Shown: one piece after another, positions 41,658-47,532 of the stretch
Numbering within the stretch: the stretch's first letter is position 1
Layout: each line of letters opens with the position of its first letter
NCBI RefSeq assembly: GCF_012563545.1
Contig: NZ_CP050804.1
Span: 1,674,001-1,738,000, forward strand
Source of the DNA: Arcanobacterium buesumense
Lineage (GTDB): Bacteria > Actinomycetota > Actinomycetes > Actinomycetales > Actinomycetaceae
Length of the DNA: 64,000 nucleotides
Direction: 5' to 3'
The notes under the pieces: generated by a model
Told to the model about the DNA's origin: nothing
Databases searched by the model: none
Seen by the model: the letters and a program-made list of their open reading frames with translations, nothing else
Translations under genes and position numbers: made by a program

Positions 41658-42035
41658 ATGCTTAAAGGTTTTAAAGATTTTATCAACAAAGGAAACGTCA
41701 TCGATCTTGCCGTTGCCGTTGTTATTGGCGCAGCTTTTGCCCCAGTCATTTCATCGTTGACCGAAAAAATTCTCATGCCGCTTATCTCTGCGATCTTCGG
41801 CGAACCAAAATTCGATAATTTGGGTGAATTCCACATCGGTTCTACTGCAATTCAGCCAGGATTCTTCATCACGGCAGTAGTAAACTTCCTCATTGTCTCT
41901 GCTGTTTTATACTTTTTCGTCGTCGTTCCAATGAACGCATTTGCTAAGCGAAAGAAGGAAGAAGAGGCTCCTAAGCCGGTACCTGCCGATGTTGAACTTC
42001 TCACCGAAATCCGCGATCTTTTAGCTCAGCGTTAA
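41658..42035 (+). CDS. mscL: Large-conductance mechanosensitive channel
   Basis: Emergency osmotic release channel, homopentameric in the inner membrane. The 125-residue protein has the N-terminal amphipathic segment MLKGFKDFINKGNVIDLAV, first helix AVVIGAAFAPVISSL, second helix TAVVNFLIVSAVLYFFVVV and a basic cytoplasmic tail with a C-terminal helix. It is followed by a strong terminator. Confidence 0.96.
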   Translation: MLKGFKDFINKGNVIDLAVAVVIGAAFAPVISSLTEKILMPLISAIFGEPKFDNLGEFHIGSTAIQPGFFITAVVNFLIVSAVLYFFVVVPMNAFAKRKKEEEAPKPVPADVELLTEIRDLLAQR

Positions 42036-42106: not shown

Positions 42107-42331
42107 TTATAGCTTGCCAAAATGCGGTGGCAGATTATCCAATAATTCACGCTCATGCGGATCTAACGCAGGCGGTTTCTTCGCCGTCGGCATCACCGGA
42201 CGCGACAAAACAGGACCCGCATCCCAAGCGTGCAGCGCTTGCTCAGGTTCCGTAAACTCACCAGCAGCCAACCGCTGGGCATCAACCCGCGACAGCCGCA
42301 CAACACGGCGTCCTCGCTTATTGTTCGTCAC
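42107..42331 (-). CDS. Small basic protein coupled to the helicase-like gene
   Basis: 74-residue protein beginning VTNNKRGRRVVRLSRV and ending PHERELLDNLPPHFGKL. The GTG at 42331 has GGGAG six bases upstream and overlaps the end of the large upstream gene by 14 bases, so translation is probably coupled. I do not recognise a family. The basic N terminus and the coupling suggest a partner or accessory of the large protein. Confidence 0.7.
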   Translation of the reverse strand: MTNNKRGRRVVRLSRVDAQRLAAGEFTEPEQALHAWDAGPVLSRPVMPTAKKPPALDPHERELLDNLPPHFGKL

Positions 42332-45300
42332 GAGCAACTCCCATGCGCCGCACAATATTCGCTAACACTCGTTCAATCTGGCTCCCGCGGCGTAATGCTA
42401 ATTCTTGACGCAACAAGGTCACATAATCATCAGTGGTCCGGTCAACACCGTCTGAGGCAATCCATAACAACAACTCTTCTAACTCGTTATCCGTATAACC
42501 AGCTAGTTGAAGACCCGGAATCACTGCTGGACGTGGCCGTGTGCGTCTTGGCTGAGCCGCCAGGGCATCAGCAGTCTCAACTGGGTGCTGTTCTTGCGGT
42601 TCACCCCACTCATCTACCGTTGGCACAACCACGTCATTATTGTTTCCACTGTTCTCCAGTACCGCGCGTACCCGTTCAATAACCCGCTGTGCCTGTCCTT
42701 GCGGATCAACGAATAGCGACGTCGAGAATGTTTGATATACCTGCCAGCCGTGGTACTCCAAAGTAGCTACCCGATAGCGGTCTCGACGGCGAAGCGAGGC
42801 CTGTTGTGCATATCCAAGATCGTCATAAACAACTGCAACCGCCCACTGGCCCGGAATATCCCGATGTCCAACAATCAACGGAATACGCCACTGTCCTTCA
42901 CCAACATTTGCCCGCGTCACGTAACCAGCTGCCTCGATACGACGTGCCAGATCCGCAAGCAATGGCGCAATTTCGCCTGAGCTTTCCGCAATCTCAACAT
43001 CCTTGCTGTAGCCACCTGCTTGCCCCAAAAGTTCGGCAAGCAACCGTGGGCCAGGAGTAGAAACGCGATTGAGGGAAATCTCGCCCGGCGCAATCGAAGA
43101 AATAATAGTCATTGATCCGCGCGCTGCTTCAATCGCATCAATCATCCCGGTTAAACCCACAGGCGTTGACAATGCTCCGAAAGAGTGCAAGACCCTCCCA
43201 TGAACAGTTTTGCCATACCCAACCGACAAAATCACGTGATCGCGCCGAATACTTGCAGCATTAAAAATATCGACGACGAGGAAGGGTTCACCCTGATCCC
43301 CGGCATACAACGCGGATAATTCTTTCGATTCAGTGCCAACATGCCGCAATGCTTCACGCACCCGATGAGCGTGCGCCGGCGAAACTGTAATCACTGCCAA
43401 CGACTGGTCAGGACGGCTCATTGCGTGGGCAAGAACTGCCTCAACCACCGCATCAACTTCGGCCTTTGGCGCTTCAACCGCGCCATCAGCAGACGGGCTA
43501 GGCACTCCACGGCCATCTACTACAATAAGCTGCGATTGCGTTACTGCCGCTACTGATGGGACTTGCGAAAGAACGTCGTCGTAACCATGTGCTCGTAAAG
43601 CCTGTAAAGAAAGATCATCGAGTCGGGCACGATTCGTTGGCAACTGACGCACCGGCAAGGTGCTCGCCAAGCTTCGCAGTGCACCATTTTCTCGTTCAAC
43701 AACGCCCGCCCGGCGCACATCTCCAAAAACTACCTGTTGGCGCCCGCGTGTTAAAGCACCAGCAACCGAAGCAACACTCGCATTATCTGACACATCCATC
43801 ATGACCAGATCAACCCACGGCATCGGCGGAATAAATTCAGCAGCAATTGTTGCTGGCACGATCCATACCGGCCGGGCAACCTGCACTAGCCGTTGATACG
43901 TGGCAATAACGTCTCGCAGTACTGAAACACCATGCCGAGCCAACAGACTATCGAGTTTAAGAGTATCTTGACGCCGATCAATCATGAGTGAACGTGCATT
44001 ATTCACTACTGCTAATTTAACTGGGCCAGCAAGCGAAGCACAGTGTGCCTCGTCCAAAGTACGGAAATCTGTAACGAGCTCGTCAAGATCTTGTGGACCC
44101 AAATGAGCTAGTGCAGAAGATTTAACAATCAATTGCTCGAAAACTGACGAGGCATACGCCAAATCAAATTCCGCATCAACGAGTTGGGCTGGCACTTCAC
44201 GCCGCAACATATCGTCAACAAAACGCTCTAAACCACGCTCACGTAACGCGTTCAACGCCGCGTTACGATCTGGCAGAATCATCATATGTTCGCCATCTGC
44301 GGCAAGGGCATTAATTCGATGTTGTAGCTTGTCAAAGTCAAGTGTATGGAAGTCTTCATCAGCTAAATGCTCAGACAAGAAAGCCAAGTCAGCAACAAGT
44401 TCCTCACTTGTTTCTTGCATATGTGCTAATCCTTGAGGTAACTGCGGCCAGCCACCTTCTGCCGTATAACGACGCCAGGTTTCACGACGCTCCTCAACCT
44501 TGGCTAGCTCATCATGAAGATCGGCAACCACTGCCCCTGGGCGAACCAGGTCCTGAGCTTGTTTCTTAAAACGCCGACGTTCCCCACCACGCATCGAATG
44601 ACCATGCTTATCGCGCCAATCGCGTGACGCAGTAGCAATCACCATATCCATTGGTGAAGTTTCGAAAATCTGAGGAACAAAAATATCAAGCGATTGGGCA
44701 ATACCGTCTAGAACGTTGATCTGTTCTAGCCATTGTGCCAAGGTTCGTGCTTGTTGTAAACCAGTTTCACCGGCGGCGCGAGAAGATTGATTAACGACTC
44801 CAGCAATAGATTTCTGTAGCCGCTGAACTGCCGCCAAAGCAGTTTCTCCGGTTTGTGGATCGGCAATATCGGTATTGATCCATGCCGAGTGAGTAATGTG
44901 TGAATCGAATGCGTGAGATTGACCAGCTTGAGCAATTAAATCATGTATTTTGCTCAGTTCCTCACCAGTCATGTTGTTAAGAGTATGGCTGTCAAAACGC
45001 ACCTTCGTTAATGGTGCTTGCTTACCTTCAGTAGCGGCAGCAAGTTTTTCGAGCAAATCATATACCGATACTCCCCACTGCGGATCAACATCATGAAGTT
45101 CACGCATAAATGTTTCGATGACGTTGCGAACTTCCATGAGACGAGCACGCCGAGCTAAGGTTTCATCCATTGCAAGTTCCGGACGCTCCACACGCATTCC
45201 GGTACGTAACCGCATAGGAATAGCTTCGACGTCGGAAAAGTCAGCAACCAGATCCGCTAAACCATGCTTTTCTAGTTCACTCACCAGGTCTGCGGCACTG

Positions 45301-46580
45301 GCGGCACGGGAGGGAACAATCATCAGTGACCGACCAGAGGCCACCGCATCGGCAGCCACGGCAGCCATTGTCGGGATTCTACGTGACCCCGGCGGGCAGT
45401 CCACCACAAGGGAACGCCCGGCAGCTACTGCCTCTACGACGTCAAGCTCACTAGGATCGAGATCACCAACGCCGCGCTCACTTTCTGGGTTACGATCCGC
45501 GCTATTCCCAGGAGGTAGTAGCAATGCACACCGCTCACGCGATTGTGGATCACCAGCGAGCGCTAACATCAGTGTAGAAGTACGGATATACGGTTCCATC
45601 GCTTCTAGATCAGCGAGCATCATGCGTTCCGGCTGGAAGAAAGACCCCAAAATCACTTTCGGTTCATAGGAGAAACCAGGAAGATAGATTCGGCCTAGCT
45701 CATTCATTCGAGTAATCAAGACATCAACTGAACTACCTTCGGTAGCCAATTGACGTAGTGCAGCCAATTCTTCTGCGGCGGCACCATGGTTGCGTAAAGC
45801 ACGAATAACAACAGGATTAATTTCAGCGGCGTCCACAAGCTGGACTAGCGCATCTTTTTGCGATGGGAAGAAAAGACGAACTGGACGGAAAATACCTGGT
45901 TCTGTGATAGTCCTTGCCTCGCGAACCTCATCAGCAGATTTCTTGTTCGCTTCTACGCCCTCATCAGTGACATCGGTATGGGTGTCAAGCTCCAAGAACT
46001 CACCTTCTGATAGGTGTAACTCCCCAGTAACGTCATAGTTGGGCTGTGGCATCTCAGTGGATGTTTGTTCTGGTAATTCAGTCCACGTCATTGCTCCTAC
46101 GGACAAACTTGCCGGAGCATGACCGTAGGTTTGCGCTGTTTGATCAAGATCCTCACGCAATCGTGCCAGCTGGATTTTTGCTTGCGCTAAAGAACGCTCT
46201 TCGCGAATCAATGATGAAAGCCGAGTAGCTTGGTAGCCATAAAATTGTACTGATCCAGTGGGGTGAATCTGAGTTAAGTCGATACGCCCAGGAGTGCGCT
46301 GGGCCTCGCGTTGATCGGCAATTTGTGCTTGTGCATTAAGCTCAGCATGCCACTGAGTATAGGCAAGGTCCATCAGCTGATCTCGGGAAATAATCATTTC
46401 CGGTTTACGATCCGGGGCACTGTGGGGTGGTTCCTCCGCTGATATCTGAGCCGTGGCTGCCTCATCAGTATCACTCTTTTGTTCCGCAGGTGTCACCGGC
46501 GGCGCGACAGCAGGATCGATCGTCAGCTCATCGTCGTTCATTTCTGGAACGGCGTTCTTCTTACGTTTAAAAAAACTCAC
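42318..46580 (-). CDS. Very large SF1 helicase/endonuclease-like protein with eroded catalytic motifs
   Basis: 1420-residue cytoplasmic protein with the layout of DUF4011/AAA-type SF1 helicases fused to a Vsr-like (MTES_1575) nuclease. The N-terminal part has IDLTQIHPTGSVQFYG and ATRLSSLIRE. The Walker A position reads DCPPGSRRIPT near 395 instead of PPGTGKT. Motif II is DLVMMDVSDN near 927 instead of DLVIFDEAS. Motif III is FGDVRRAG. The GYG segment is kept (ILSVGYGKTVHG) but motif VI is GMIDAIEAARG. The nuclease-like segment near 1215-1290 keeps RRRDRYRVATLEYHGW but has IPLIV where IDLAV is usual. The GTG at 46580 follows AGGTGAG. Length is intact, so it is a conserved pseudoenzyme candidate and not a broken gene. 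Confidence 0.8.
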   Translation of the reverse strand: MSFFKRKKNAVPEMNDDELTIDPAVAPPVTPAEQKSDTDEAATAQISAEEPPHSAPDRKPEMIISRDQLMDLAYTQWHAELNAQAQIADQREAQRTPGRIDLTQIHPTGSVQFYGYQATRLSSLIREERSLAQAKIQLARLREDLDQTAQTYGHAPASLSVGAMTWTELPEQTSTEMPQPNYDVTGELHLSEGEFLELDTHTDVTDEGVEANKKSADEVREARTITEPGIFRPVRLFFPSQKDALVQLVDAAEINPVVIRALRNHGAAAEELAALRQLATEGSSVDVLITRMNELGRIYLPGFSYEPKVILGSFFQPERMMLADLEAMEPYIRTSTLMLALAGDPQSRERCALLLPPGNSADRNPESERGVGDLDPSELDVVEAVAAGRSLVVDCPPGSRRIPTMAAVAADAVASGRSLMIVPSRAASAADLVSELEKHGLADLVADFSDVEAIPMRLRTGMRVERPELAMDETLARRARLMEVRNVIETFMRELHDVDPQWGVSVYDLLEKLAAATEGKQAPLTKVRFDSHTLNNMTGEELSKIHDLIAQAGQSHAFDSHITHSAWINTDIADPQTGETALAAVQRLQKSIAGVVNQSSRAAGETGLQQARTLAQWLEQINVLDGIAQSLDIFVPQIFETSPMDMVIATASRDWRDKHGHSMRGGERRRFKKQAQDLVRPGAVVADLHDELAKVEERRETWRRYTAEGGWPQLPQGLAHMQETSEELVADLAFLSEHLADEDFHTLDFDKLQHRINALAADGEHMMILPDRNAALNALRERGLERFVDDMLRREVPAQLVDAEFDLAYASSVFEQLIVKSSALAHLGPQDLDELVTDFRTLDEAHCASLAGPVKLAVVNNARSLMIDRRQDTLKLDSLLARHGVSVLRDVIATYQRLVQVARPVWIVPATIAAEFIPPMPWVDLVMMDVSDNASVASVAGALTRGRQQVVFGDVRRAGVVERENGALRSLASTLPVRQLPTNRARLDDLSLQALRAHGYDDVLSQVPSVAAVTQSQLIVVDGRGVPSPSADGAVEAPKAEVDAVVEAVLAHAMSRPDQSLAVITVSPAHAHRVREALRHVGTESKELSALYAGDQGEPFLVVDIFNAASIRRDHVILSVGYGKTVHGRVLHSFGALSTPVGLTGMIDAIEAARGSMTIISSIAPGEISLNRVSTPGPRLLAELLGQAGGYSKDVEIAESSGEIAPLLADLARRIEAAGYVTRANVGEGQWRIPLIVGHRDIPGQWAVAVVYDDLGYAQQASLRRRDRYRVATLEYHGWQVYQTFSTSLFVDPQGQAQRVIERVRAVLENSGNNNDVVVPTVDEWGEPQEQHPVETADALAAQPRRTRPRPAVIPGLQLAGYTDNELEELLLWIASDGVDRTTDDYVTLLRQELALRRGSQIERVLANIVRRMGVARDEQ

Positions 46581-46623
46581 GTTTCTCACCTATCGCTGTC
46601 GTAACTCATCGTCGCAATACACG

Positions 46624-47532
46624 TTATCGTGCTACTGCTTCCTTGTGGGTTTCGCAATACACTGGCTTTTGAGCGCAGTTGTCACACGTCACGAGACGCA
46701 TCCGGCATGACGGCTCGTCACAATTGTGCAACTTACCTGTGGGAGTGCCACAACCGTGGCATGTCCCAATGACGTCGACGTCTCCGCCGTCGAATTCCAT
46801 CACTTCACGATTGTCAAAAACTGTCAGTGAACCCTTCCACCGTCCAGTGTTGCCAAACATTTCTCCATATCGCACGATACCGCCGTCGAGCTGCATGACT
46901 TTGTCAAACCCGCGTTTCTTCATCAACGCAGTCAACACTTCACAGCGGATACCGCCAGTACAATATGCCAAAATCGGCTTGTCTTTAAGATCATCGTATT
47001 CGCCGGATTCAAGAATTGAAATGAAGTCGTGGGTAGTCATCGTTGGTGGAACAACCGCTCCATCAAAACGTCCCACTTCGGCTTCAATAGCGTTACGTCC
47101 GTCAAAGAACACCAGATCCGGATTATCCGCAATCACTTGTTCAACGTCTGCTGGCTTGACCCGTTTTCCGCCACCAACGATACCGTTTTCGTCTACTTCG
47201 AGTTCTTCCGGAGCCCCAAACGCCACGATCTCTTTGCGCACTTTCACAGAAAGCCGCGGGAAATCAGACGCATAGCCTTCGGCGTCTGTGCCTAAACCTT
47301 GAGATATCTTCCATTCGATATCTGCGAAACCCGGATATTGCTTCATGCGTTTGACATAGGCTTTACACGCATCAATCGTGCCACCAACGGTGGCGTTAAT
47401 GCCGTGTTCGGAAATCAGAATCCGGCCACGGAGCTTCAGGCGCTCACATAAATCCCACTGCCACAGTTTCATAGCAACCGGATCGGCAATCGGTGTGAAT
47501 TTATAGAAGAGTAAAACTCGAGAAAGCGCCAC
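46624..47532 (-). CDS. trhO: tRNA uridine(34) hydroxylase TrhO (rhodanese family)
   Basis: Oxygen-dependent enzyme that hydroxylates U34 of certain tRNAs. The 302-residue protein has the acylphosphatase-like N-terminal domain (ISEHGINATVGG), the rhodanese domain with the active Cys in AYCTGGIRCE, and a C-terminal Cys-rich zinc segment (CHGCGTPTGKLHNC and CDNCAQKPVYCE). AGGGG precedes the GTG start. It is next to tRNA-Arg. Confidence 0.93.
   Translation of the reverse strand: MALSRVLLFYKFTPIADPVAMKLWQWDLCERLKLRGRILISEHGINATVGGTIDACKAYVKRMKQYPGFADIEWKISQGLGTDAEGYASDFPRLSVKVRKEIVAFGAPEELEVDENGIVGGGKRVKPADVEQVIADNPDLVFFDGRNAIEAEVGRFDGAVVPPTMTTHDFISILESGEYDDLKDKPILAYCTGGIRCEVLTALMKKRGFDKVMQLDGGIVRYGEMFGNTGRWKGSLTVFDNREVMEFDGGDVDVIGTCHGCGTPTGKLHNCDEPSCRMRLVTCDNCAQKPVYCETHKEAVAR

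Follow-up and report, generated by a model that had tools for sequence, protein, structure and literature searches.

A core helicase-nuclease homologue of the Actinomycetales that has lost its catalytic motifs

What is a large helicase-nuclease gene kept for when its catalytic motifs have gone? The question is raised by a gene in a window of 64,000 nucleotides from Arcanobacterium buesumense (the whole stretch of DNA that was analysed), which an earlier note, made from the sequence alone, had described as an intact gene of 1420 codons. The minus-strand frame (42318-46589) has no interruption anywhere, and its longest reading, from GTG 46589, gives 1,423 amino acids. GTG 46580 is more likely to be the start, since a Shine-Dalgarno-like stretch (AGGTGAG) lies directly 5' of it and conservation among family members begins at its residue (VSFFKRKK), so that the original description of the gene is borne out. 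In the Arcanobacterium-containing subclade, the protein opens with a conserved basic-aromatic peptide, VS(P)FF[KR]RK (window 46550-46580; N-termini L002-L037), which precedes a variable acidic linker and is possibly an interaction motif. A TrhO/UPF0176 rhodanese gene (46624-47532) lies on the same strand, 43 bases upstream of the pseudo-helicase-nuclease gene, an arrangement seen only in the closest species, and the two may be co-transcribed. The features of the gene and its locus are collected in Table 1.

Table 1. Features of the pseudo-helicase-nuclease gene and its convergent neighbour (window coordinates; residues are counted from GTG 46589, and 3 is subtracted for the preferred start GTG 46580).
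Feature	Residues	Coordinates	Strand	Sequence or remark
Pseudo-helicase-nuclease gene		42318..46580	(-)	1420 codons from GTG 46580; stop 42318-42320
N-terminal region equivalent to DUF4011 of intact orthologues	101-170	46080..46289	(-)	RIDLTQIHPTG...TRLSSLIREE
Degenerate Walker A / motif I	397-407	45369..45401	(-)	DCPPGSRRIPT; GPPGTGKSQT in active forms
Degenerate motif II	932-936	43782..43796	(-)	DVSDN; DEASQ in active forms
Motif III position	956-962	43704..43724	(-)	GDVRRAG replaces GDERQLP; D957 retained
Motif V region	1115-1139	43173..43247	(-)	RRDHVILSVGYGKTVHGRVLHSFGA; conservation highest of family; signature common to intact orthologues
Degenerate motif VI	1148-1158	43116..43148	(-)	GMIDAIEAARG; first Arg gone (A1155), second retained (R1157)
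MTES_1575 (Vsr-like) nuclease domain	1213-1306	42672..42953	(-)	Predicted dead: D to P1237, E to V1254
Conserved C-terminal segment	1351-1415	42345..42539	(-)	RPRPAVIPGLQLAGYTDNEL...RRGSQIERVLANIVRR
mscL		41658..42035	(+)	Convergent neighbour and order-wide marker of the conserved locus; given for context, not as a functional part

The encoded protein is by homology a full-length SF1 helicase joined to a Vsr-like nuclease, as had been proposed, because BLASTP aligns it with a catalytically intact orthologue (L057) across ~1,270 residues (6e-115), hhalign aligns the Arcanobacterium sequences, all of them dead, colinearly with active ProA-type proteins along 1,078 columns (100% probability, E 2.9e-46), and a profile of 17 orthologues matches SMUBP-2 (3e-13), UPF1 and DNA2 in the PDB. 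The colinear homology spans both RecA-like lobes of the UPF1/DNA2-like SF1 proteins, and the Walker A GK[ST], Walker B DE and arginine finger of that group are missing. Pfam recognises only MTES_1575 (PF18741) in the window protein (5e-13, 49.4 bits against a gathering cut-off of 38.2), in a domain that lacks the catalytic D and E. The proposed relationship to DUF4011 and AAA-type proteins holds at one remove: the intact orthologue L057 scores on DUF4011, AAA_11, AAA_12 and MTES_1575, whereas the window protein has no Pfam score on DUF4011 or AAA_11/12. AlphaFold models of residues 205-1323 and 1010-1320 (from a shallow six-sequence alignment) reached a pLDDT of 42.9 and 42.6, too poor to use or to reveal whether surfaces for DNA binding survive.

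The motif strings quoted in the earlier note are all present, together with LSVGYG and RRRDRYR. Aligned to intact orthologues, the motif strings fall at the positions of motifs I, II, III and VI; hhalign also pairs DCPPGSRRIPT with the GPPGTGKSQT of active ProA-type proteins. In Walker A the G-K pair is replaced by RR, the Walker B glutamate by V and the first arginine of motif VI by A; D932, D957, R1157 and D1256 are retained. The loss of the nuclease pair, with IDLAV changed to IPLIV at the D and AVETDG to AVVYDD at the E, is an addition to the earlier note, which did not mention it. Within the nuclease domain D1256, R1267, R1269, G1281 and W1282 are kept, and H109, P110 and R129 are conserved in the region equivalent to DUF4011. 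A scan of the whole window protein for GK[ST] found a single occurrence, in GYGKT at 1124-1128 (GK[ST] at 1126-1128) within motif V/Va. This was rejected as a relocated P-loop, since GYGKT is also found in intact orthologues that have a true Walker A, and the sole DEAH-like string (about 845-848) was rejected as motif II since it lies outside that motif. A true Walker A elsewhere or a fold unrelated to SF1 helicases would have spoken against the original reading; the protein has no other Walker A, and by sequence it is colinear with SF1 helicases.

Whether the loss was clade-wide had been left as a check, and none of the 56 family members read, a sample in which a few species pairs are almost identical, has the Walker A G-K-[ST], the first arginine of motif VI or the nuclease D or E; the motif II DE survives in six. 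As read from these sequences, the loss is family-wide and not a local oddity. The three Walker positions rank between the 10th and 27th percentiles of conservation, among the least conserved in the protein, and the position of the Walker A lysine is occupied by R, V, K, D, A, G and others. At the top of the ranking stand P1237 (98%), D1256 (100%) and the 1115-1139 stretch; the RRDHVILSVGYGKTVHGRVLHSFG stretch and the nuclease-like RRRDRY/GW region likewise rank with the best conserved parts of the protein. The replacement residues might themselves sustain nucleotide binding or DNA cleavage, and the conservation of residues next to the active sites (D932 in 43/56, with D or E there in 53/56; D957 in 50/56; R1157 in 48/56; D1256 in 56/56) would suit an unconventional enzyme of this kind. 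However, the Walker A positions vary freely, the protein has no alternative P-loop, and across the family the nuclease D has become a nearly fixed Pro and the E a Leu or Val, and we consider such an enzyme distinctly unlikely.

The gene is found in 9/9 genomes of the genus, in 121/121 genomes of the family (36 genera) and in 146/149 genomes of the order, where representatives were read, so that some matches could be related helicases at the E-value used; only 12/60 genomes drawn from the whole class carry it. The relatives that bear a name all belong to Arcanobacterium. The gene is part of the core genome of the order Actinomycetales and is inherited vertically. A check of dN/dS had also been suggested, and the ratio, which is pairwise and partly saturated, is 0.03-0.13 in unsaturated pairs and up to 0.18 in more distant ones, indicating purifying selection. 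Slow decay of the gene once its function had gone would account for the missing catalytic residues and for the one or more in-frame TGA codons seen in the gene in a few draft genomes. Against decay stand the dN/dS of 0.03-0.18, long frames that are intact in nearly all genomes, retention order-wide, even in a 0.8 Mb genome (G172, L045), and an identity to relatives about equal to that of several neighbouring housekeeping genes. Slow decay is refuted at the scale of the order and we give it next to no credence; an open reading frame artefact or pseudogene is likewise ruled out by dN/dS and universality. As a conserved protein without its catalytic motifs and under purifying selection, it is a candidate pseudohelicase of the RecC, AddB and Deinococcus radiodurans PriA kind, in which DNA binding and/or interaction with a partner would persist without ATPase activity.

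Most copies occupy one conserved locus, convergent to mscL and followed beyond it by SAF, FmdB, 5-formyltetrahydrofolate cyclo-ligase (5-FCL) and MoeA genes, an arrangement common to many families. Dead copies at this locus were found in f1, f2, f3, f6, f8, f13, f15, f19 and o38. In f4, the L046 locus holds an intact positional orthologue, with an FmdB-like gene and, at 425 bases, a convergent mscL. Downstream of the intact f17 copies L057 and L096 there are likewise matches resembling mscL and FmdB. Synteny scoring relied on tblastn searches with window proteins and exemplars, so that an absence is weak evidence and a single short match could be due to chance. The intact core orthologues (f4 and f17; L046, L057, L104, L106, L107 and L108) mostly share the signature GYGKTPHGRVLHRFG with the window protein, but differ from it in retaining every helicase and nuclease catalytic residue. 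Complete motifs survive in two other families of the order, in one of them beside the same mscL, so that on sequence grounds the dead forms are descendants of an active enzyme. Confusion with paralogues was rejected by positional orthology and by a tree from which the motif columns had been left out. Clade-wide loss, near-universal presence, purifying selection and intact ancestry together support the earlier proposal that the gene has been kept, and not as an ATPase.

In that tree (a quick LG+G4 search without bootstrap), families form clades except f7, which takes in a single f2 row (support 87). Intact forms lie in f4, most of f17 and o45; all the members sampled from the large sister clade have lost Walker A, as have o38, o25 and two f17 members. 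The Walker A state needs at least three changes on the tree, and the predicted ATPase has been lost at least three times. The loss of the ATPase seems to have preceded that of the nuclease, because 12 core orthologues lack Walker A and motif II yet keep the nuclease and motif VI residues, and none of the core orthologues keeps Walker A with the nuclease pair lost; the only rows that retain Walker A but not the nuclease pair, five in number, all belong to the canonical ProA-type outgroup. At f5, f15 and some f6 loci (e.g. L047, L056, L113), the Walker A lysine is gone while the motif VI arginines and nuclease D/E are retained, and these proteins may be ATP-independent nucleases. A single family, f17 (L057, L096, L101, L103-L107), spans fully intact to Walker-A-dead forms.

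The closest named families are anti-phage proteins, namely PDC-S37 of PADLOC (7e-89), ProA (1.5e-82) and Hhe (2e-32). Like PDC-S37 and ProA (NF058533), the window protein has a DUF4011-like N-terminus, an SF1 helicase with a long insertion and an MTES_1575 nuclease, in that order. Active ProA-type proteins, however, retain GPPGTGKS, DEAS and ITRAR, which the window protein has lost, and they are rare and patchy, whereas the window protein is shorter and encoded by a core gene. One genome of the same genus (G007) encodes, at L083:2429-8914, a genuine ProA, which exceeds the curated cut-off with 1574.9 bits and coexists with the dead core protein. These relatives, and the presence of both genes in one congener, could point to a sensor or regulator in anti-phage defence, which might for instance inhibit or guard helicase-nucleases of the ProA/Hhe type or act as a decoy for them. 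Defence genes, however, are mobile and of patchy occurrence, and the dead gene is universal and lies in a conserved locus among housekeeping genes. Active ProA-type paralogues occur in only 6/61 family genomes, leaving mostly no ProA to regulate. The window protein also falls far below the NCBIfam cut-offs, with 277.9 bits in three partial stretches against 1500 for ProA, whose intact SF1 motifs I, II and VI it lacks, and 111.6 bits against 2000 for Hhe (NF042953). A defence role is on this evidence rather unlikely. The earlier note had offered a scaffold, sensor or inhibitor; retention in a role other than ATPase stands, and a trans-inhibitor of ProA-type defence is disfavoured by the scarcity of its target. 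In Pseudomonas aeruginosa, too, a large DUF4011 gene belongs to the core of all isolates, where it flanks the cDHS1 defence hotspot (PMC10250203); its likeness to the gene described here lies in its size and core status.

We think it probable that the order-wide core pseudoenzyme serves as a scaffold or sensor that binds DNA: that catalysis was lost and the gene kept is read from the sequence, and DNA binding and a partner are suggested by analogy. Catalytically dead, and descended from a protein with DUF4011, SF1 helicase and MTES_1575-nuclease parts, it would keep its two RecA-like lobes, long inserted region and nuclease-like fold as a DNA-binding platform, which would hold or recognise a DNA structure without using ATP and then hand the DNA to an active partner. 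Comparable fates have been described elsewhere. The nuclease-like domain of RecC has lost catalysis and is now a hoop for single-stranded DNA (PMC1185551), and AddAB has a helicase-like domain (PMC4824097); in RecC and AddB, helicase and/or nuclease folds that are dead live on in subunits that handle DNA. The resemblance to RecC and AddB is one of mechanism; these belong to another SF1 subgroup and carry another nuclease type, and the window protein, unlike them, has no linked active partner gene. Two adjacent large frames of 1,058 and 1,186 amino acids with PDDEXK_1 domains (G000:C1:1386831-1391044) are probably an AddAB/AdnAB-type DNA-end resection pair, and because this separate pair is present in the same genome, the pseudo-helicase is disfavoured as simply a missing RecC-like subunit. 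Deinococcus radiodurans PriA, in which helicase motifs have been lost clade-wide, has given up ATPase and unwinding activity and kept DNA binding and its interaction with DnaB (PMC4504706); it is from another protein family and has lost the helicase only, whereas the window protein has also lost the nuclease.

That across almost the whole order a large helicase-nuclease became a conserved, non-catalytic core DNA-handling platform through repeated and ordered loss, of the ATPase and then of the nuclease, we put at about an even chance. Literature searches found no description of the dead helicase-nuclease family, and a gene of 1,400 residues that is core in nearly all of a large order and has no described function in the searched literature represents a gap in knowledge. 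To annotate the protein as an AAA ATPase or a helicase of anti-phage defence would be misleading for most members. The order, and indeed the single family f17, contains both intact and dead orthologues, so that the question why motor and nuclease can be discarded while the protein is retained can be tested directly among close relatives, for which f17 offers a natural series for studying catalytic loss.
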